From a virus, in the IMG/VR virus record IMGVR_UViG_3300028025_001522, positions 1 through 26,365 of that record: a stretch of DNA of 26,365 bases. The stretch is one strand, 5' to 3'. Shown piece after piece: positions 1 through 26,141 of this stretch. Under the pieces are notes generated by a model, which did no database searches, had not been told where the DNA came from, and saw only the letters and a program-made list of their open reading frames with translations. Position numbers and translations under genes: made by a program. The number at the start of each line of letters is the position of its first letter. The stretch's first letter is position 1.

Positions 1-325
1 TTAGCAGATCAGCCCAGAGCCATGCGGGCATTACCGCGTATGACTCTGAGACATTTGTAGTGCCACGCTTTTTTATTAGCACCACGCCAGTCTCAGCATC
101 AGCATGAGTCATCTCATCTGAGAGCTCCTGCAGATAGCCACTGAGAGTGATCTTCTTTTCGTTCTTACATTCTATTACTACGCCATCGATACCGTCAATG
201 TCTCCGACATCATCGTGACGACCTGCACCATACGCACGTTCAGCGCATGGAAAACCATAAGAGACTAGCCATTTAACTACGTCTCGCTCATACTGTGAGC
301 CTTTGCGTTTGCTTGGTGTTGTCAT
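1..325 (-). CDS. Holliday-junction-resolvase-like PD-(D/E)xK nuclease, C-terminus cut by window edge
   Basis: Start is the ATG at 325-323, overlapping the WhiB stop codon as ATGA, so the two genes are translationally coupled. 108 codons are visible and the frame is open to the left edge, so the C-terminus is missing. The N-terminus is typical of Hjc-type archaeal/phage resolvases: KRKGSQYERDVVKWL (residues 6-20) with acidic E13, then GRHDDVGDIDG with D42, then VVIECKN with E52 and K54. E13, D42, E52 and K54 form the classic PD-(D/E)xK metal-binding set. The family resolves branched DNA or acts as a general phage nuclease. Its place at the end of the replication operon fits late processing of recombination intermediates. 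A VRR-NUC-type nuclease is an alternative; the fold class is more certain than the substrate. Confidence 0.8.
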   Translation of the reverse strand, partial: MTTPSKRKGSQYERDVVKWLVSYGFPCAERAYGAGRHDDVGDIDGIDGVVIECKNEKKITLSGYLQELSDEMTHADAETGVVLIKKRGTTNVSESYAVMPAWLWADLL

Positions 326-579
326 ACGTAGTCCGAACTAAGAATAGATTCTAATTTAATTCCAAGTTTCCTACGCATCTGCATTCTAACGCGAGGAACT
401 GTGCCACCCCAGATACCGAAAGCCTCGTGATGCATACCCCACTCCAAACATTCTTTAACTATTGGACAATTACTACAAATCTTTTTTGCTATTGGAACGA
501 TACTCATATCATCTTCTGGATAAAAAAATTCAGTGCCAATCTCTTTACATAAAGCTTCGCTAAAGTCTGGATACTTCAT
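322..579 (-). CDS. whiB: WhiB-family [4Fe-4S] transcriptional regulator
   Basis: This is an 85-aa single-domain protein. The four cluster ligands are C11, C35, C38 and C44 (C-x2-C-x5-C in the last three), followed by the family hallmark GIWGGT at 55-60 and a basic Arg/Lys segment (VRMQMRRK, 63-70) of the type used for DNA binding. WhiB proteins bind a 4Fe-4S cluster and usually act with the principal sigma factor. Mycobacteriophage TM4 carries one that interferes with host WhiB2, division and superinfection. The gene overlaps its upstream neighbour by 20 bp and the downstream nuclease by an ATGA, so it is part of the replication operon rather than an independent cargo gene. It is the strongest evidence for an actinobacterial host. 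The targets cannot be read from the sequence. Confidence 0.95.
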   Translation of the reverse strand: MKYPDFSEALCKEIGTEFFYPEDDMSIVPIAKKICSNCPIVKECLEWGMHHEAFGIWGGTVPRVRMQMRRKLGIKLESILSSDYV

Positions 580-1081
580 TGATCAGCACCTCTATCGGTT
601 GTAGTTGATTAGCGTCCATGACTAATCGAGTGCCGTAACCATAGTCATGCTTGTAATGATTTGCAAGAAATAATTCTCGTGTCGTCCAACCAAGTATGCT
701 GAACCTACTATCTACATGTGGCAATTGTTTATCACCAAAGAACTGAACCAACACTGCATAGTCAGATACAAATAACTCTGGTGCATTAAAGATTAGTTTA
801 TCTAACGTTGATGTCTTGACCTGTATATTTTTTCCCAGTGGTGTAGATAGGTCGTGTCCATTATCACCACTCGGCGAAATCGTTCTGTCCACCTGTAGCC
901 CAAGTCCCTTGCCACACGCCATCTCACCCAGCTGACCCATAAGATTAACCGAATACGATGAATTGTTTTTGTCAAACTTCTTATCAACAACTTCATATTG
1001 TTTTTTATTTTCTCTCACTAGGTGGATGAAACGAAGCGCATCCAAGATCTCATCTAGGGTTAACTCAACATCTACTGCCAT
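560..1081 (-). CDS. Putative PD-(D/E)xK-fold nuclease (unknown family)
   Basis: 173 aa. I do not recognise a named family. The N-terminal 40 residues are helical and charged. The middle contains MGQLGEMACGKGLG (48-61), then GDNGHDLSTPLGKNIQVKTS (72-91). That layout, with E53 in a helix, D77 after a GHDL turn, and Q87-x-K89 on the next strand, matches the PD-(D/E)xK nuclease core, where Q can replace the second acidic residue, as in several restriction-type enzymes. The rest is predicted mixed alpha/beta with aromatic patches (e.g. HYKHDYGYGTR). The start at 1081 overlaps the upstream ATPase stop by 10 bp and AAGGA lies upstream. The context (ATPase before, WhiB and a resolvase-like nuclease after) supports a DNA-processing role. 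The nuclease call is inference from motif spacing. Confidence 0.55.
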   Translation of the reverse strand: MAVDVELTLDEILDALRFIHLVRENKKQYEVVDKKFDKNNSSYSVNLMGQLGEMACGKGLGLQVDRTISPSGDNGHDLSTPLGKNIQVKTSTLDKLIFNAPELFVSDYAVLVQFFGDKQLPHVDSRFSILGWTTRELFLANHYKHDYGYGTRLVMDANQLQPIEVLINEVSRL

Positions 1082-1905
1082 TGTCTCATTGTCCTTGCTC
1101 GTTGCAGTTCGGCAGGTGAGTTATACAAACTCATGTGGCTTGCCTCCGCTGACAGCGAGATGTAAATCTCTGCTGTTGGGTCGGCTTTACCATGTCGATT
1201 CTTTACTACGGCAACGCGGTAAGCGTTTGCTTGTCCATCTAATGCAACACTAAGAACCAACTCTGGTAGTGCTGCGACCTTACCCATCAACGCTTTACGT
1301 GGAGCTGGATAGTTAGGCTTTGACATCTTCTCGTTCTCGGATACGTGATGAAGAACAATAAAGGCTGACTCATATTCACGAGCCATGTAGTGGAACGCTG
1401 ACATTGCATCACGCAATGCAGTCCATTCATTGTCGCTTGTTGAAGCGACATTCATTAAGTTGTCTACAAAAATTGCTTGTGGTGCAGAGCCGTGCAGTTC
1501 TATCCAAGCTTCTATTTCTTCTTCGATATCTTCTAACGAAGGTGACGGATCGAAGTTGAATCGAACATGCCCTGCACCATCAGCCAGTGCATCCTCTAAA
1601 AGAACTGACGCATCAGAGTCCATCATCTTCTCAACTTGTGCTACTTCTTTCTCCATAAGGATTGCCCCTGCACGAGTGGCTATTGTTCGGGAGTCAGAGT
1701 CGGCTGAGAAATAGAGTGAAGGAACCTTAGATTGAATTGCATACCACAGTGCAAGTAGTGTCTTACCACCACCAGGTTGTGCTGCTATCAAATGCAATTG
1801 CGCTTGACGAAACACCACTTGTGATTGAGTAAGTTGTGGCAATATCTCTGGAAGCATATGACCAACAGGAGATTCAACTCCCACTACTTGCAACAGTGAT
1901 CGCAT
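1072..1905 (-). CDS. RecA-fold replicative ATPase (AAA_25/RepA-like, DnaB-related helicase candidate)
   Basis: 277 aa. The Walker A motif is AAQPGGGKT at 41-49, preceded by a strand (LHLIA). The helix after it, LLALWYAIQ, and then VPSLYFSADSD are as in KaiC/RepA/DnaB-type RecA folds. Walker B is AIFVDNL (144-150, D148). A polar segment around LHHVSENEKMS (about 190-200) sits where the family's sensor or glutamine-switch residues lie. A later patch, VVKNRHGKADP, resembles the arginine/lysine finger region. The protein lacks the DnaB N-terminal domain, so it is a compact RepA-type hexameric helicase or a recombination ATPase. The gene follows the 156-aa gene by two bases. A RecA/RadB-like recombinase remains possible, but no DNA-binding L1/L2 signatures are obvious. 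Confidence 0.8.
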   Translation of the reverse strand: MRSLLQVVGVESPVGHMLPEILPQLTQSQVVFRQAQLHLIAAQPGGGKTLLALWYAIQSKVPSLYFSADSDSRTIATRAGAILMEKEVAQVEKMMDSDASVLLEDALADGAGHVRFNFDPSPSLEDIEEEIEAWIELHGSAPQAIFVDNLMNVASTSDNEWTALRDAMSAFHYMAREYESAFIVLHHVSENEKMSKPNYPAPRKALMGKVAALPELVLSVALDGQANAYRVAVVKNRHGKADPTAEIYISLSAEASHMSLYNSPAELQRARTMRQWQ

Positions 1906-1907
1906 CT

Positions 1908-2378
1908 TTACTTAGCCCAGATTGTTTCTGCTTCTACTACACCTGGAGTGAAAGGCTTTGGTCCCTTAGCTGGATCGAACCAACCAATGTAAGCCTTGCC
2001 AGCCTTGGAAGTACCCTTCTTCTTTGCATACTTACCGCGACCATCTGGTAGTGCTGGTGCATCTGGATGTCCATATGTCCATTCATTACCGTAGCGATCC
2101 ATGATTACTTCAATTGCTTGAGGCGAACCTGCTGCAACTGGAGTTGGGTTGAGACCAGCATCTTGTAGCACCTGCACTGCTGCTGCTGAAGCAGCGAATG
2201 CACCACCTGACGCACCGCCTGAACGGTTGTTAAGTGATTGCTGTAGCGCAGTAGCAGAAGCAATAGCTTCTACCGCTGCTGTTAGATTTGCAGCAAACTC
2301 GCTAACACTATTACCGCGAACGGTAAATAGATCAGTTGAGTTTAACTTGCCTGTGTATGAGAACATAGATTCAGTCAT
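1908..2378 (-). CDS. Unknown phage DNA-metabolism protein (possible ssDNA-binding-type accessory)
   Basis: 156 aa, not assigned to a family. Three parts are visible. Residues 1-45 are mixed (FSYTGKLNSTDLFTVRGNSVSEF). About 46-75 is an Ala/Gly/Ser-rich linker. The C-terminal half is compact and aromatic (DRYGNEWTYGHPDAP, then a Lys/Gly segment, then KAYIGWFDPAKGP, ending in TIWAK). There is no cysteine, so it is not a zinc ribbon, although the spacing of the C-terminal half is reminiscent of ribbon-like tails in other phage proteins. The start at 2378 overlaps the exonuclease stop by 8 bp and has AAAGGAG nine bases upstream. Lying between an exonuclease and a helicase-like ATPase, a single-strand-binding or annealing-accessory role is a reasonable guess, but no OB-fold signature is visible. 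Confidence 0.6.
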   Translation of the reverse strand: MTESMFSYTGKLNSTDLFTVRGNSVSEFAANLTAAVEAIASATALQQSLNNRSGGASGGAFAASAAAVQVLQDAGLNPTPVAAGSPQAIEVIMDRYGNEWTYGHPDAPALPDGRGKYAKKKGTSKAGKAYIGWFDPAKGPKPFTPGVVEAETIWAK

Positions 2379-3048
2379 CTAGTCCATCTCCTTTTCTCTT
2401 TCCCTGGATTTGTAGTGGGAAATCTTTGCTACCGAATGCTGGGCATTGGGCAGTGAAAGAGCACATACGACAAGAGTCTCCGACGGAAGGTGGGAACCAA
2501 CCGTTCATTGTCGAGTGGTTCATCGCTCCGAATACATAATCAAAATAATCCATGCTTAGTGGAGATAAGTCAAGTAACTCATCGAGTTCGCCTTTGCGTG
2601 TCATGAAGAACGCACCCCACTTAGGGCGTATGCCATAGGCTCGCTCTATGCCAGAGGCGTAGAGCCCTGCTTGAACAGCTCCGAAGGGTGTCCTAGAACC
2701 TGTCTTGTAGTCAACGATAACCAAGTCTTCCCCCACCTGATATATCGCATCAACAATCATTCGTACTGGTGTTCCCCCGAAGTGAACATCTGCACTCCAT
2801 TCGATTCCAGGACGCCCATCGGGCATGGTAGCAATCTGCCAACCAGATGACTCATACCATTTCTGGTATGCCTCCACCTGCTTGAGTCCATCATTCTGCC
2901 AGAATGGCAGATCTTCCCCATCAGGACGTGCTGCAGTTTTACGACCAGCTGTCTTCCACTCCGAAGAGGGAATGTTAGATCGTGATTCTACTTCTGCTAC
3001 GGCATCATTAAATACCTCTAGCCATTTAGAAGTCAAATTGATAGTCAT
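2371..3048 (-). CDS. Cas4/RecB-type PD-(D/E)xK exonuclease, C-terminal part
   Basis: 225 aa. The catalytic core is VRMIVDAIY (D100) followed by LVIVDYKTGS (D113 and K115), then a QAGLYASGI helix as in RecB motif QxxxY. C193, C196 and C202 (CRMC...C) are the three C-terminal ligands of the Cas4/AddB-type iron-sulfur cluster. What is missing is the N-terminal part carrying the fourth Cys and the conserved His; both are in the separate ORF 3222-3422, with a zinc-ribbon ORF in between. Intact family members are one chain. The start is ATG at 3048, with weak GGAA upstream, inside the end of the zinc-ribbon gene (23-bp overlap). There are no CRISPR genes nearby, so this is a phage recombination/replication exonuclease rather than an adaptation protein. 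Confidence 0.85.
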   Translation of the reverse strand: MTINLTSKWLEVFNDAVAEVESRSNIPSSEWKTAGRKTAARPDGEDLPFWQNDGLKQVEAYQKWYESSGWQIATMPDGRPGIEWSADVHFGGTPVRMIVDAIYQVGEDLVIVDYKTGSRTPFGAVQAGLYASGIERAYGIRPKWGAFFMTRKGELDELLDLSPLSMDYFDYVFGAMNHSTMNGWFPPSVGDSCRMCSFTAQCPAFGSKDFPLQIQGKRKGDGLDD

Positions 3049-3262
3049 CAGGGTTCCAATCTGGGTGGTCTACTGGGGTTGGGGCTGTCATTGGTGACCC
3101 GCATTGGGCGCAGAATGAATCTAAGAACCACATAACTAATTCGTAGTCAGAGAAGATTGCTCTTATGACTTGAACGTTTGATCCGCAGTTGATGCACTCA
3201 TTGCTGGGTACACCCCGCTGATCAATTAGTTGTGTTGGATCGTTGTTGTCTGTAGAGCTCAT
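3026..3262 (-). CDS. Small double-CxxC zinc-ribbon protein nested in the exonuclease locus
   Basis: 78 aa. Two knuckles, CINCG (C23, C26) and CAQCG (C51, C54), are separated by 24 residues containing IRAIFSDYELVMWFLDSF, the usual layout of a single zinc ribbon. The C-terminus is acidic and Pro/Trp-rich (HPDWNPDDYQFDF). It overlaps the N-terminal exonuclease ORF by 41 bp and the C-terminal one by 23 bp, each in a different reading frame. There is no good Shine-Dalgarno at its ATG, so coupling to the upstream ORF is likely. It could be a separate DNA-binding or protein-binding subunit, or an insertion that now bridges a split enzyme. I do not recognise a named family. Confidence 0.75.
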   Translation of the reverse strand: MSSTDNNDPTQLIDQRGVPSNECINCGSNVQVIRAIFSDYELVMWFLDSFCAQCGSPMTAPTPVDHPDWNPDDYQFDF

Positions 3263-3422
3263 GGTTTAACCACTCAATCATTGAATGTACTGCAGACCCA
3301 GCAGCAAGGTATACTGCTGGTTTCTCTGGAACCATGGCTATCTTACTCAGGTAATATTTCTGAGGACAGGACTGCCAGGTTGATAGCTGGCTAAACGATC
3401 TGTGCGGAGGAAGTTCATTCAT
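3222..3422 (-). CDS. Cas4/RecB-type exonuclease, N-terminal part (split gene)
   Basis: 66 aa. It starts with RSFSQLSTWQSCPQKYYL (8-25), the standard N-terminal motif of PD-(D/E)xK exonucleases, with cluster ligand C19. AAGSAVHSMIEW follows, with H46 as the conserved His of RecB motif I. The ORF then stops, and the rest of the enzyme resumes at 3048 in another frame. It is the first gene of the leftward replication operon, about 140 bp from the divergent methyltransferase gene. I see no convincing Shine-Dalgarno (CTGG just before ATG), so leaderless or weak initiation is possible. Because both halves keep their key residues, I read it as a split functional gene, but decay or an assembly artefact cannot be excluded from one sequence. 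Confidence 0.75.
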   Translation of the reverse strand: MNELPPHRSFSQLSTWQSCPQKYYLSKIAMVPEKPAVYLAAGSAVHSMIEWLNHELYRQQRSNTTN

Positions 3423-3437
3423 TCCAGTAGGATATCA

Positions 3438-3465
3438 GTCGTAACCAAGATTACTTGGTAACGAC
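3438..3465. promoter_or_regulatory. 28-bp inverted repeat between divergent operons (operator candidate)
   Basis: The left arm GTCGTAACCAAG (3438-3449) and right arm CTTGGTAACGAC (3454-3465) pair at 11 of 12 positions around the 4-base centre ATTA. It lies 16 bp upstream of the leftward exonuclease N-terminal gene and about 97 bp upstream of the rightward methyltransferase gene, where a repressor would control both. As RNA it would also form a hairpin; on the plus strand a T-rich run follows at 3471-3478, but no rightward gene lies upstream, so a terminator role is less likely. I could not identify confident -10/-35 boxes around it. Confidence 0.5.
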
Positions 3466-3520
3466 ACGCCTTTCTTTTTTACCAGTATTGGTATAGAGTA
3501 GAGGGGTGGTGGGCGGGAAA

Positions 3521-3540
3521 GGCTCGCCACAGGGCGAGCC
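3521..3540 (+). other. Perfect GC-rich stem-loop in the methyltransferase leader
   Basis: GGCTCGCC (3521-3528) and GGCGAGCC (3533-3540) form a perfect 8-bp stem with loop ACAG. It ends 21 bases before the methyltransferase ATG and 13 bases before its AGGAAG. On the plus strand no T-run follows, so it is a 5'-leader stem rather than a terminator. Read leftward it is followed by only TTT, so it could at most be a weak back-stop for leftward readthrough. Confidence 0.6.
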
Positions 3541-3561
3541 GATGAAAGAGAATAGGAAGTT

Positions 3562-4143
3562 ATGACATATCCGAATTGGTTTGAATCAACAGATGCAAAG
3601 GCAAACTTTGAAAGAAACCTTCTGCCTCTGGCAGACAAAGAGATCAAGTGTCTTCAAGTAGGTGCGTATACAGGGGATGCCACCAAGTGGATGGTCGATA
3701 ATATTCTTAAGCAACCAGATTCATTCCTTGTAGATGTAGATACATGGGAAGGTTCTGATGAGGCAGTCCATCACAACATGGACTGGCAAGACGTATTCAA
3801 AACATACTCAAACAAAAATGCAAAGGCTATCCTTGATCAGCAAGTGGTAGTAATGCAGATGACTAGTGATAAATATTTTGCTGGGATAAGTAACGAGCAT
3901 GTCTTTGACTTCATCTATGTAGATGGTGACCACACTGCGTTTGCTGTATTGCGTGATGGATCAAATGCATATGACAAGCTCAAGGTGGGAGGCATCCTTG
4001 CCTTCGATGATTACACATGGAGCATGAGTAAGGGAGACTTCTATGACCCAGGGTATGCCATTGATGCACTGTGTCATTTACTTATTGGAAGAGTAGAGAA
4101 GATAGAAGACAACTCTCAGCTCTGGTTAAGAAAGATTATATAA
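3562..4143 (+). CDS. Class I SAM-dependent methyltransferase (TylF/Methyltransf_24-like)
   Basis: 193 aa, the only convincing plus-strand gene. Motif I is CLQVGAYTGDATKW (30-43, Gly-x-x-x-Gly loop). The acidic end of strand 2 is FLVDVDTW (D58/D60). FDFIYVDGDHT (115-125) and GGILAFDDYTW (143-153) match the DGDH...DDY pattern of small-molecule O-methyltransferases, in which these acids bind a divalent metal. That pattern argues for a sugar or small-metabolite O-methyltransferase rather than a DNA methylase: there is no DPPY/NPPY or PC motif. It has AGGAAG two bases before the ATG and an upstream stem-loop, and the terminator hairpin lies just downstream. Inverted between two leftward operons, it looks like a moron-type cargo gene. 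The substrate is unknown. Confidence 0.85.
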   Translation: MTYPNWFESTDAKANFERNLLPLADKEIKCLQVGAYTGDATKWMVDNILKQPDSFLVDVDTWEGSDEAVHHNMDWQDVFKTYSNKNAKAILDQQVVVMQMTSDKYFAGISNEHVFDFIYVDGDHTAFAVLRDGSNAYDKLKVGGILAFDDYTWSMSKGDFYDPGYAIDALCHLLIGRVEKIEDNSQLWLRKII

Positions 4144-15313: not shown

Positions 15314-16978
15314 TTATACGTCAGCTTTTTTACTACGACGTCCGAGGGATGTCGTATCAATTGATGACTTCTGTGCAAACATCGCACGTTCTTTAGAAGC
15401 TAATTGCTTCTTCTTCATGGTGACATCTGTGCCACCAGTAAGTGCGAGTTCTTCGCGGGCAAGATCTTGGTCACCAGCTTGCTCACCATATAGACCCATG
15501 AGTCTGCGGTAATCGGCTTGGTTAGTTGCAGCAGCTTGGAATGCACCTTCTGCTTGAGCACCTTTACCAGACTTGTAAATTTCTTCTGCGAATCCTTTGT
15601 CAGATAGTTGGTTAGCACGAAGTGCAGCACCACCAATTTCAGCAGCACCATACATCTGTTGTGCTTCTGCTGTGGTGTATCTAAACTTAGAATTAATAAC
15701 ATCAAATGCTTTTTCACTATCAAGAAGATAGGCAGCCATTTCACCTTCGGTCATACCGTAGTAATTCTTAAGCGAGTCTTTGGTTGCCTGGTCTGCATTT
15801 TGTAGAGCATTGCGAGCAATGTTGACACGATCTGTTAGTTCGGCTGCGCTTACAGAGTTTTCAATAAGACGACGGAAGTCGTCTTGTGTGTCATAGAATC
15901 CGCTTGGTAATCCAGCCTCAGCCATGATCTTTCTGTAACCAGCCTCTGCTTGGATATACTCATATGGTGTAAGAAGCTTGTCACCAGGGCGACCTTTGCC
16001 ATCCTTCATACGCTGAGCGATTGCTTCATTAGCAGCAAAGCGAGTCTTATACGCCTCGCTATCATAAATACTATTTAATACCTGGGCATCAGTAGGCATG
16101 ATGTTATCCCTATATACTGAATCAATTGAATCCATTAAAGAATTCATAAAACTTGTACCAAGACCTGTGTTCTCAAACATCTTAAGAACTGAATCACGAG
16201 CACCAAAGTCTGTATATGAATCAACCATCTGACCTATAGTTCCATCTGACATGACTTGGTAAACTTCTACCACTCCACCAGTTTTACGTACGGTCTTTTC
16301 GTATGCAACAGTTACTTTTGCTGGCTGAGCCATTGCTGTTTGCATGTTAGCAATTTGATTAAGAAGGTCTTGAATCTGAGAATTAACTGATGTTGTTGCA
16401 GCAGCTACTGGATCTACAACACGGTCTGTTACGTATGATGTTGAGAAGCCACTAGTTACCACTGGTGATGTAACAACTGGAGAGGTTACTACTGGTGATG
16501 TAACCACAGGGGAAGTTACAACTGGAGATGTAACTACAGGTGAGGTTACTACTGGTGATGTAACTACAGGTGAGGTTACTACTGGAGTTGTAGTCTTAGG
16601 CTTAGTTCCAGAACCAGGATCAGTAACAATCTTTGTTCCAGACCAAATCATATTTCCGTCATCATATTTAGGGTTGTTCATGATGGCAGGATTGATCGCC
16701 CTGATCTCTTTAAGCGTCATGTTATTAGCTTTGGCAATAGCACTAAGCGTATCTCCAGGTTTAACAGTAACCTTAGTTGGTGCTACATAAGGAACTTCTG
16801 TGGCAGCTTTTTGCATAGCTTGAAATTTTGTTTGTTCATCAACTACTGCTTTTACGGCAGCAGCAAGTGGACTTATTTCATTAATTGTTCCAGCTTTATA
16901 CGGTTGGTTTGCCGTGGTTGGAGTAGAACTTGCGTTGTATGGAAGTGTTGAGTATGGGTAATCGTCATATACTGGCAT
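15314..16978 (-). CDS. LysM-containing virion protein with PVVTS repeats
   Basis: 554 aa. Residues 70-118 form a LysM domain (TVKPGDTLSAIAKANNMTLKEI..., ending NPKYDDGNMIWSGTKIV). Nine PVVTS pentapeptides follow as a flexible linker (coded at 16451-16585). A long, mostly helical and Ala/Gln-rich C-terminal half comes next (GEMAAYLLDSEKAFDVINSKFRYTTAEAQQMYGAAEIGGAAL...), ending in a basic tail LGRRSKKADV. LysM domains bind N-acetylglucosamine polymers, so the protein probably contacts peptidoglycan during entry; position upstream of scaffold suggests an internal or tail virion protein. No lytic catalytic residues are evident. Confidence 0.75.
   Translation of the reverse strand: MPVYDDYPYSTLPYNASSTPTTANQPYKAGTINEISPLAAAVKAVVDEQTKFQAMQKAATEVPYVAPTKVTVKPGDTLSAIAKANNMTLKEIRAINPAIMNNPKYDDGNMIWSGTKIVTDPGSGTKPKTTTPVVTSPVVTSPVVTSPVVTSPVVTSPVVTSPVVTSPVVTSPVVTSGFSTSYVTDRVVDPVAAATTSVNSQIQDLLNQIANMQTAMAQPAKVTVAYEKTVRKTGGVVEVYQVMSDGTIGQMVDSYTDFGARDSVLKMFENTGLGTSFMNSLMDSIDSVYRDNIMPTDAQVLNSIYDSEAYKTRFAANEAIAQRMKDGKGRPGDKLLTPYEYIQAEAGYRKIMAEAGLPSGFYDTQDDFRRLIENSVSAAELTDRVNIARNALQNADQATKDSLKNYYGMTEGEMAAYLLDSEKAFDVINSKFRYTTAEAQQMYGAAEIGGAALRANQLSDKGFAEEIYKSGKGAQAEGAFQAAATNQADYRRLMGLYGEQAGDQDLAREELALTGGTDVTMKKKQLASKERAMFAQKSSIDTTSLGRRSKKADV
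16451..16585 (-). repeat. Nine 15-bp repeats encoding PVVTS
   Basis: Nine perfect pentapeptide units (PVVTS) in 135 bp. At DNA level the units alternate between two spellings (e.g. CCAGTAGTAACCTCA and CCTGTAGTTACATCA), making a 30-bp higher-order repeat. This suggests expansion by whole 30-bp units. It encodes an extended Pro/Thr linker between the LysM and helical parts of the protein. Confidence 0.9.
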
Positions 16979-16982
16979 CTAT

Positions 16983-18215
16983 TTACCCCAAGAATCCGAA
17001 GTCGCGGAGAATGGTATTAGCAATACCAGTCTTTTCTTCTTTAGCCCAACTTGTAAAATCAGAATCAGGAGAACGACGTCCAAGTTTCTTAGTGTCATAA
17101 AGGTTCATAGTCTTTACATTTCCTTTTTCGTCTGTGTAGTTAAGAGCTTGTTGAAGATACTTATCATTAAGATCAATTGTGTTTGGGTCTACTTCCCATG
17201 TGTTTGCAAGAGCATTGATCCATGGATCTGCTGCAGCACGTAGCGTTTGACCTTGTGAAATTTGGTTAGTTAACCCAGGGAACATAGACATTGCTTGCTT
17301 CTGGAAGTCATTATCAATATCCTCTGCGTTCAAAGTGCCAGCAATAAGACCCTTCATGGTTGTTTCAAACCATCCTTCGAACCGTGTGTTAGACATACTG
17401 GATGGGAAACCATAATCCCATGCTCGCTTGTAAAGCTCGTTAGCTACAGTCTCTAACTTTCCAGTCATATTGTAGATTGTCTTGCCACCGATAGTGCTCT
17501 TCTTGCTAAAGTCAATTGAGTTAGCCATGATCTTATTAAGAAATTCCTGGTCATAACGAACTACCTTGCCAGATGAATCAATGATTGCTGACTGCATTAA
17601 CTGCTGTGCGTATTCAATAGCCTGTGCTGCGGTAATCTTTATGCCATTGCCCATGAATTGTTTAACAATATTACTTGCATTTAGCTGCAAGTCTGCAGCA
17701 AACTGACCTGGGTTAGTCTCCTTAGCATAAACAAATTGACGTTGCTTATCGGTTTGGTTCTTATACCAAACAGTTCCTTGAATCATCTGAGTCATTAGTG
17801 CCTCAGATGTAATTCCTTGCTGTAAAATCTGGTCAAGAACAGTCTTAAGACTTGTGTCAGCACCAATGATTCCAGCAGCTATACCAAACTTTGCTTGCAA
17901 TGTAGCCATGTCAAGCTTGTCAACATTGGTTGCTGCTTGGGTTGCTGTGGTTGTTCCAGTTGCATTACCTGTGCCAGTGCCTGTGTTTGCACCAGTGTTG
18001 GTTGCTCCACTAACGGCTGTGTTTAAGCCAGTGCTTGCCCCTGCTGCTGTTGGAAGTGTAAGAACTGTGCCACTAAATATTGTGCTTCCACCGTTATACT
18101 TTGGATTGTTCTTTAACATCGGGTTAGCAGCAAGTAATTTTGCTGTAGTTGTTCCGTTGGCAGAAGCAATCTTGCTAAGCGTGTCGCCAGATTTAACCGT
18201 ATATTTATCTGCCAT
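16983..18215 (-). CDS. LysM-containing virion protein
   Basis: 410 aa. The LysM domain is at the very N-terminus (YTVKSGDTLSKIASANGTTTAKL, 5-27, ending NPKYNGGSTIFSGTVLTLP). An Ala/Gly/Thr-rich linker follows (about 57-95), then a helical domain to the end (LDMATLQAKFGIAAG..., YAQQLMQSAIIDSSGKVV..., ANELYKRAWDYGFPSSMSNTRFEGWFETTMKGLIAGTLNAEDI). The helical region resembles phage internal or muralytic-adjacent virion proteins, but I see no lysozyme or transglycosylase catalytic glutamate context that I can defend. It has GGGGAGG before the ATG and overlaps the 280-aa gene by 11 bp. Confidence 0.75.
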   Translation of the reverse strand: MADKYTVKSGDTLSKIASANGTTTAKLLAANPMLKNNPKYNGGSTIFSGTVLTLPTAAGASTGLNTAVSGATNTGANTGTGTGNATGTTTATQAATNVDKLDMATLQAKFGIAAGIIGADTSLKTVLDQILQQGITSEALMTQMIQGTVWYKNQTDKQRQFVYAKETNPGQFAADLQLNASNIVKQFMGNGIKITAAQAIEYAQQLMQSAIIDSSGKVVRYDQEFLNKIMANSIDFSKKSTIGGKTIYNMTGKLETVANELYKRAWDYGFPSSMSNTRFEGWFETTMKGLIAGTLNAEDIDNDFQKQAMSMFPGLTNQISQGQTLRAAADPWINALANTWEVDPNTIDLNDKYLQQALNYTDEKGNVKTMNLYDTKKLGRRSPDSDFTSWAKEEKTGIANTILRDFGFLG

Positions 18216-24656: not shown

Positions 24657-26141
24657 CTATTTCTTAGTTGGAAGTTTTACCTTTGTGCCAGACCAGATCA
24701 TGCTGCCACCCTTATACTTAGATTTCTTGTCAGCAATCTTTGGATTTGCTGCAAGAACTTCAGATAGCTTTACTCCAGATGATTTTGCAATACCTGAAAG
24801 TGTGTCGCCCTTCTTAACTGTGTAAGAAGTAGTTGATCCACCTGCGTTAACTTGAACGTTAGGACCAAGCTTTACACCTTTACCGCCACCTTTTGGATAC
24901 TGTCCTGCTGGTCGTTGTGGCAGTGGCTTAGATGCTGCTGGTTTAGATCCGCCACCAGTTGGGATTTTGTCAATTGCATAGAATCCTGCTGCTGCAAGTC
25001 CTACCTTCTTGACCTTACCCATCTTTCCTGCTTTAGCTGCCTTCTCTGCTTTAGCAACATTAGCTGCTTTACGTGCAGTATTAGCTGCCTTAAACTTTGT
25101 GCCAGACTCTGCTGCCTTAACAGCCTTAGTTACCTTAACGGCTTTATTAGCACCGATAGCACCTTTAATAAGAGAGCCTGCTTTAAGGAACTTACCTGGA
25201 CCTACAATCATTGCTGCTGTCTTAGCAGCTTTACCTACTGGTGAGTTAAGAACTTTACCAATCGTAGAAACTTCTTTAGCTGCTTTCATGACAGGTGTTT
25301 TCTTAGCTGTGGTTTTAGCAGCAGTTACTTTCTTTTCAAGAGTGCTCAACTTATCTACTTTAGGTGTTGTTACCTTTGGCTTAGTTGGCTTTGGCGCAGT
25401 TGCTTTAGTAACTGCTGGCTTATTAACTCCAGGCTTACTACCCTTTTCTTGACGAAAGACAGCCTTGTTCATTGCTGACTTTGGCTTTACACCTTGCTTA
25501 ATTAGATCATCATAGATCGCTTGACCCTTTGGTGTAAGAGTCTTGCCTGCAGAGAAACCTTTAGTTGCTGGCTTCATTGCTTTCTTTTCTGCTGCTTCAA
25601 CTTTCTTAACATCGTCTACTGTTTTAACAGTTGTTGATCCAGTTGGACGAGTTGTAAACTTCTTTTTTGTCTTCTTTGCAGGTGCTTCTGCTTTAGCAGG
25701 AGCTGCAGTCTTCTTCTTAATAACCTTGCCTTGTGACTTAACTTCTGTAGCCTGAATAAAAGTGCGAGTTTTGTTCATAGTGCTACCTTTGGGAGTAGGC
25801 TTAGAAGGTGCATCTGGTTTAGGAGCACGTCCTTTACCATCTTCTGCATCCCACTTGCGTTGAAGTTCAGCTCTAGCCTCACGGCGATCACGTGCAATAC
25901 GTTCTGCTGAAGTTTCAGTAGGCTTAACATTAATCTTATTACCACGATCATCGGTAATATAATTTTGTCTTGCTTCAGATTTAACTTCGCTAAGAGCTTT
26001 CTTATCATCTGCGGAAATCTTTAACGTGCGGTCTTTTAATCCCGCTTGCTTCTTTCCAGAGAAGTCTTTCTTGGCTTGAGCCAAGGCATCTTTACGTGCC
26101 TGCTTAAACTTCCTTGGGCGTGTTGGTTTCTTGGCTGCCAT
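24657..26141 (-). CDS. Long basic LysM virion protein
   Basis: 494 aa. The first 430 residues are extremely Lys/Ala/Pro-rich (e.g. AAKKPTRPRKFKQARKDAL, KKTAAPAKAEAPAKKTKKK), like histone-like or DNA-condensing tails, with a few hydrophobic patches near 300-330 (AAMIVGPGKFLKAGSLIKGAIG) and about 383-397 (VGLAAAGFYAIDKIP). The end (about 438-494) is a LysM domain (YTVKKGDTLSGIAKSSGVKL..., SKYKGGSMIWSGTKVKLPTKK). The combination suggests a virion protein that both touches packaged DNA and binds peptidoglycan at entry. It has AAAGGAT before its ATG. Low-complexity regions limit what can be inferred. Confidence 0.7.
   Translation of the reverse strand: MAAKKPTRPRKFKQARKDALAQAKKDFSGKKQAGLKDRTLKISADDKKALSEVKSEARQNYITDDRGNKINVKPTETSAERIARDRREARAELQRKWDAEDGKGRAPKPDAPSKPTPKGSTMNKTRTFIQATEVKSQGKVIKKKTAAPAKAEAPAKKTKKKFTTRPTGSTTVKTVDDVKKVEAAEKKAMKPATKGFSAGKTLTPKGQAIYDDLIKQGVKPKSAMNKAVFRQEKGSKPGVNKPAVTKATAPKPTKPKVTTPKVDKLSTLEKKVTAAKTTAKKTPVMKAAKEVSTIGKVLNSPVGKAAKTAAMIVGPGKFLKAGSLIKGAIGANKAVKVTKAVKAAESGTKFKAANTARKAANVAKAEKAAKAGKMGKVKKVGLAAAGFYAIDKIPTGGGSKPAASKPLPQRPAGQYPKGGGKGVKLGPNVQVNAGGSTTSYTVKKGDTLSGIAKSSGVKLSEVLAANPKIADKKSKYKGGSMIWSGTKVKLPTKK

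Follow-up and report, generated by a model that had tools for sequence, protein, structure and literature searches.

Nucleases of the Cas4 and AddB type have one N-terminal and three C-terminal cysteines as ligands of an Fe-S cluster (PMC3466216), and Cas4-like PF12705 proteins constitute a large clade in the mycobacteriophages (PMC5704561); the part of that report consulted here makes no mention of a split form. The enzyme family is known, and so are split phage enzymes, with both the split NrdA of phage Aeh1 and the split gp43 of phage 25 being functional (PMC2988022). The locus described here is in a viral sequence of 26,365 nt (IMG/VR record IMGVR_UViG_3300028025_001522; the whole stretch is referred to as the window), where a nuclease of this type is encoded in two parts, N and C, with a third ORF, Z, between them. 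The features of the locus are as follows.

3222-3422, minus strand: N cistron, 66 aa, predicted N-terminal lobe of a Cas4/AdnA/AddB-type nuclease, matching PF12705 and the N-terminal parts of phrog_69 and phrog_1870
3366-3368, minus strand: codon for C19 in N, a presumed Fe-S ligand
3285-3287, minus strand: codon for H46 in N, a presumed active-site histidine
3222-3262, minus strand: N/Z overlap of 41 bp, in which the N stop codon TGA (3222-3224) lies within the Z codons ATT GAT
3026-3262, minus strand: Z cistron, 78 aa, zinc-ribbon-like (CINC...CAQC), situated in the break
3026-3048, minus strand: Z/C overlap of 23 bp, containing the C start codon ATG
2371-3048, minus strand: C cistron, 225 aa, predicted nuclease core, matching PF12705 (34.1 bits) and phrog_1870 (E 5e-57)

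The three ORFs occupy three frames, with steps of +1 from N to Z and +1 from Z to C, and these frames, both overlaps and the eight named residues are all as described in the initial annotation. D100, D113 and K115 are in the C cistron, and the four-cysteine layout is distributed over the two ORFs, with C19 in N and C193, C196 and C202 in C, as judged from the residues only. Each of N and C matches PF12705 independently (30.2 bits for N, the score for C being that given above) above the gathering cut-off of 22, and they cover complementary parts of the 313 positions of phrog_1870 (11–68 for N and 76–292 for C), so that N plus C make up one complete protein. The earlier suggestion that the two ORFs hold the set of residues normally found in a single chain is borne out by this complementary coverage and by their end-to-end alignment with single-chain relatives, and N and C are thus the two halves of one Cas4/RecB-type nuclease. 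The scores against the CRISPR-associated Cas4 equivalog TIGR00372 (30.6 bits for C and 14.8 for N) are both below its NCBIfam cut-off of 65 bits. No relative was found when bacterial genomes were scanned with the alignment of C, and a profile search of the PDB with C alone gave no match at E 0.01.

The single-chain relatives are in phages of Mycobacterium and Streptomyces and in soil and other metagenomes, and share about 30% identity with the split enzyme. In all of the single-chain loci compared (83 of 83), N and C both match one ORF, and in the alignment the halves are joined by a short linker without a ribbon. An AlphaFold2 model of one of these proteins (L365), with the C of the window among the alignment rows, has a pLDDT of 90.2 and a pTM of 0.87, and contains a helix at residues 37–54 that includes the histidine, a loop at 55–60, and a second helix at 61–82; in this model the break maps to the loop, between the two helices. 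The closest solved structure to the model is AdnA of AdnAB (Z 17.8, rmsd 3.3, 229 aligned residues), and there are further matches to ACE1, a Cas4-family protein associated with Argonaute (Z 16.8), AddB (15.4) and type I-C Cas4 (13.8). By descent the split enzyme appears to belong to the PF12705/phrog_1870 family, a placement carried by the alignment, and it departs from the single polypeptide of that family in having two cistrons in every split locus. We note that two of the single-chain proteins (L374 and L381) have a cysteine-rich insert (e.g. GRGICSTETWKDTNCKECEQ) between 'IWxTP' and 'PAIEL', and inserts of this type are also present in other mycobacteriophage homologues (e.g. L344, L345 and L351); the site differs from that of the ribbon gene.

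Relatives of the window, which we refer to as clade A, were collected by scanning IMG/VR with C, Z and N. The order N–Z–C with +1 and +1 frame steps is present in all loci of a first analysis with the exception of four that are cut by contig ends, and all 293 clade A loci that contain the three pieces (120 distinct N-to-C sequences) have the same order; conservation of order and breakpoints had been proposed as a check on the arrangement, and it recurs in every clade A relative that reaches far enough. Residue conservation was counted by alignment columns. In distinct clade A sequences C19 and H46 are each present in 46 of 47, the exceptions among the N sequences being one call that is apparently mis-assembled upstream and one with a 26-aa in-frame deletion. 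D100 is present in 83/83, D113 in 82/83, K115 in 83/83 and the three C-terminal cysteines in 83/83, and the CxxC..CxxC pattern of Z is kept in all 61 distinct sequences. With a dN/dS of 0.02, N is the best conserved of the three ORFs; the ratio for C is 0.12, and Z has a pN of 0.09 against a saturated pS of 0.76. Variable columns are concentrated at codon position three. All three ORFs are under purifying selection. One IMG/VR contig of 82,688 bases carries two different N–Z–C copies (L025 and L093), and probably represents two joined phage genomes.

A sequencing or assembly error, or a gene in decay, would also give a nuclease in pieces, and single odd copies are all that speaks for this. One has the 26-residue in-frame deletion in N (L030, 975–1085) with loss of H46, which could be real or an assembly slip, and the other has D113 changed to V (L076). 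The split itself is present in 120 distinct sequences of clade A and 65 of a second clade, B, from many samples and including two cultured isolates, and the split ORFs are under purifying selection, such that we regard the chance of error or decay as negligible. The initial annotation had argued against decay from the retention of every key residue, and this stands, together with the selection and the recurrence of the arrangement across relatives; the relatives carry the identical split, and the assembly or read errors that it had envisaged as a source of the arrangement are not what is seen.

Clade B was defined from E7 (OX376640) and F5 (OX376641), the cultured phages that are closest in capsid and helicase and the first to have been isolated on 'Ca. 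Planktophila' (PMC10202952). Their exonuclease is split at the same loop, and N and C overlap directly, without a ribbon between them. Scanning with the C of F5 yielded 305 relatives; 80 of these were retained, for a total of 82 loci with the two isolates. N and C are on separate ORFs in all 79 loci that hold both, the other three being cut by contig ends, and the residues are conserved in all distinct sequences (13/13 for N and 50/50 for C). Where there is no insert, the halves adjoin with one +1 step. A few clade B phages have unrelated ORFs in the junction, spanning about 288, 312 or 923 nt and lying in other frames. Examples of these inserts are as follows.

L449, 5664-6008: ORF of about 110 aa between N and C
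L455, 5658-6002: ORF of about 110 aa between N and C
L421, 4332-4658 and 4642-5307: an ORF of about 110 aa and then one of about 220 aa
L534, between 5536 and 6531, minus strand: an ORF of another kind, about 70 aa long

The L421 arrangement, an ORF of the L449/L455 type followed by the ORF of about 220 aa and 923 nt in all, is also present in L422 and L424. Scans of the clade B junction inserts gave no clear family. The junction therefore has at least four kinds of content, being empty in some phages, occupied by the ribbon in others, and filled in the rest by inserts of two or more further kinds that are unrelated to it. The break is a normal boundary between genes, into which DNA has been inserted more than once, and the junction looks like a recurrent insertion site. 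Its contents vary in kind, length and frame, a pattern that neither an obligatory frameshift nor a fixed intron could account for.

The start and stop signals in clade A are consistent with this. The stop codon of N (TGA or TAA) is at the same offset in all 119 sequences, and the Z isoleucine codon that lies over it is ATT in all 119; the synonymous codons ATC and ATA would destroy the stop of N. In 119/119 sequences C begins with an in-frame ATG, preceded by a Shine-Dalgarno-like match of at least five bases in 50 of 119 as against 8.5% at random ATGs. Z starts with ATG in most clade A loci; in two (L035 and L037) the start codon is ACG, and a TTG three codons before IDQRG could substitute. 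The stop of Z lies at three different offsets relative to the frame of C (−4, +5 and +8, in three subclades), and there is thus no conserved shift site. In every clade B locus examined, C begins with a start codon of its own, which is ATG in 76 and GTG in two (L449 and L455). N, Z and C are read as separate genes.

These signals bear on a proposal of the initial annotation that two programmed +1 frameshifts join N, the ribbon and C into one chain. The +1 and +1 steps in all clade A loci are what such a mechanism would require, but fixed frames follow from the overlaps alone. In clade B the halves are related by a single +1 step without a ribbon, or else are set apart by unrelated ORFs that do not keep to these frames. 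There is no conserved shift motif, the N stop is retained and the Z stop moves, and C has its own ATG, often with a Shine-Dalgarno-like match. We therefore consider joining by frameshifts very unlikely. Removal of the ribbon ORF within an intron would likewise restore a single N–C chain, and N and C are indeed contiguous in relatives, with a short linker only. However, there is no Rfam match in the window, nor in 2300–3600 at E 0.1, and no group I or group II intron core at the break in either search; the interval is almost entirely conserved coding sequence, and clade B lacks it altogether although N and C remain in separate frames. Splicing is hardly credible on these grounds.

The nature of Z itself is less clear. 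Profile searches with Z gave no clear family, with only sub-threshold matches to HNH profiles (phrog_4234, E 0.51); a profile search of the PDB had no meaningful match, and tblastn of the window Z against cultured phages had none at E 0.1. A structure model of Z alone has a pLDDT of 49, which is too poor for any fold claim. A MAFFT placement of Z over the start of C, with GIPSxE present in both, raised an origin of Z from a piece of C, which was set aside as probably due to chance. The Z profile search did detect a homologue in E7, F5 and clade B, where it is a gene standing on its own on the strand opposite to C, about 5 to 6 kb away, and has a CxC plus CxxC cysteine pattern in clade B. In F5 (L383, 26008–27127) it follows WhiB-like and lytic-transglycosylase-like ORFs and precedes a second small ribbon ORF, these neighbour families being assigned by eye.

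One full ribbon gene is present in each of the genomes with a split enzyme (13/13 in clade A, 12/12 in clade B, and both cultured phages), one of which (G018) has an extra ribbon end fragment besides its full copy, and in none of 14 genomes with a single-chain enzyme. The initial annotation had asked whether the ribbon co-occurs with the split halves, and it does so in all 27 split genomes, but only in clade A does it lie between N and C. All of the split genomes are on one side of the tree, so this co-occurrence is a single phylogenetic contrast, and it may just as well reflect a core gene of these phages. The ribbon is probably in the break by insertion and is not needed between the halves: its proposed role as a linker or tether is strongly contradicted by the clade B phages in which the halves adjoin without it, and by those with unrelated inserts in its place.

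A different possibility is that the ribbon protein belongs to the enzyme as a genuine third subunit, or assists its assembly, acting in trans whether its gene is inside or outside the break, with a role that may be, for example, DNA binding or metal delivery. Its presence as one copy in every split-enzyme genome and in no single-chain genome is compatible with this, as is its translation between N and C in clade A. Against it, any core gene would show the same single contrast, the ribbon of E7 and F5 is encoded on the other strand, outside the recombination module, with a WhiB-like gene and a second small ribbon ORF as neighbours, and no neighbour relation is conserved across the clades. We consider a subunit role doubtful but not far-fetched. 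A stronger form, in which neither the cluster nor the active site is complete until the two polypeptides come together, the ribbon protein being an indispensable third partner in trans and exonuclease activity being gated by assembly, is rather unlikely.

The history of the split was addressed with a tree of 67 N plus C sequences, including 30 single-chain rows. Clades A and B are together on one side of a branch with 100/99 support, with all 30 single-chain rows opposite; each forms a group, with long stems of 2.2 and 1.45. The tree is unrooted and the stems are long, and the simplest reading is that there was likely one split before A and B diverged; independent splits in the two clades were considered, but nothing in this unrooted tree calls for them. 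From the bare overlap in clade B, it would seem that the split preceded insertion of the ribbon. That overlap, present in most of clade B, could have arisen from one small indel in the linker codons together with a nearby ATG, with the inserts coming later. The split is lineage-wide in these lake actinophages.

The N, Z and C cistrons are followed by other genes transcribed in the same direction.

1908-2378, minus strand: next gene of the module, no family match
1072-1905, minus strand: DnaB/RecA-like helicase (phrog_243, E 8e-76), same module
322-579, minus strand: WhiB-like regulator (PF02467, E 4.5e-14)
2-325, minus strand: Holliday-junction-resolvase-like gene (phrog_244, E 7e-21), same module, cut by the window end

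A helicase homologue is also downstream of the exonuclease in E7 and F5 and in mycobacteriophages. The putative WhiB-like regulator points to an actinobacterial host. Elsewhere in the window there is a methyltransferase-like ORF at 3562–4143 on the plus strand (PF13578, E 4e-14), just upstream of the N cistron and on the opposite strand to it, and three large minus-strand ORFs (15314–16978, 16983–18215 and 24657–26141) have LysM-like motifs (e.g. 'VKPGDTLSAIAKANNMTLKEIRAINP') recognised by eye.

Together, these observations make it probable that two separately translated chains dock in trans and share an active site and an Fe-S site, with the ribbon gene being there by insertion. N would provide the first helical lobe, including one of the Fe-S cysteines and the histidine of the catalytic site, and C the catalytic core (D, D and K) and the remaining three cysteines. 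The two would be translated from separate, overlapping cistrons, probably with coupling, and on docking each would provide part of both the metal site and the Fe-S staple. The split, its conservation, the purifying selection, the separate start signals, the changing junction contents and the fold of a single-chain relative are observed directly; we infer docking, Fe-S binding and the biological role, and nuclease activity of N plus C is predicted from the conserved residues. The position of the gene beside the DnaB/RecA-like helicase and the Holliday-junction-resolvase-like gene makes a role in phage DNA recombination or resection likely, and the product may be a resection nuclease acting beside the helicase and resolvase. 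Of the working two- or three-part enzyme that was originally proposed, separate chains are the most plausible form, with all key residues kept, whereas joining of the chains and a ribbon linker are not sustained. It could alternatively be that only one half matters, with C either standing alone or inactive and N a relic or otherwise employed, as the presence of the halves as separate genes would allow. This is quite improbable, as N is the most conserved of the three ORFs and keeps a cysteine and a histidine that are useless without C, while C is without both in every locus.

If the halves dock, this would be a PD-(D/E)XK Fe-S nuclease that is naturally split, with a separate small protein providing a cysteine ligand and the catalytic-site histidine. 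It provides a ready system for asking whether two chains can together form an Fe-S staple, and how phages preserve the function of essential enzymes once their genes have split, and the cultured phages E7 and F5 with their 'Ca. Planktophila' host make the split testable. The junction illustrates how genes are gained where another gene has split, in viruses of abundant lake bacteria. The annotation is also corrected, as automatic calls would give a truncated exonuclease and two hypothetical proteins.

Several known systems resemble parts of this locus. NrdA of Aeh1 (with a MobE insertion), gp43 of Aeromonas phage 25 and the topoisomerase gp60/gp39 of T4 are likewise single enzymes encoded by two genes, with precedent among them for halves that regain full function on reassembly, and their splits involve a homing endonuclease insertion or an untranslated spacer (PMC2988022). 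Here, in contrast, no endonuclease domain was recognised, a bare overlap is the ancestral-like state, and different lineages have different ORFs in the break. The insertional fission of mitochondrial cox2, as given in the part of the report consulted (PMC5374615), also has complementary genes around an insert, in a different enzyme and a different system. The open-licence literature searched contained no split Cas4, RecB or AddB, and no Fe-S nuclease of this type with cluster ligands on two genes. The nuclease domains of AdnA and AddB, ACE1 and Cas4 have a fold like that of the modelled single-chain relative (Z 17.8 to 13.8), and the layout of one N-terminal and three C-terminal cysteines in Cas4 and AddB (PMC3466216) is also found here; in AdnA, AddB, ACE1 and Cas4 the four cysteine ligands are on one chain, whereas here, as known from the residues, they are on two. 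Closest overall are the 'Cas4 exonucleases' of mycobacteriophages and Streptomyces phages (e.g. BobSwaget gp66 and Ponzi gp36), which have the same family, module, and catalytic and cysteine residues, have a helicase and a resolvase close by, and align with N plus C over their full length. These are single chains at about 30% identity, whereas the enzyme described here is encoded by two cistrons, with the ribbon gene between them in the clade of the window.
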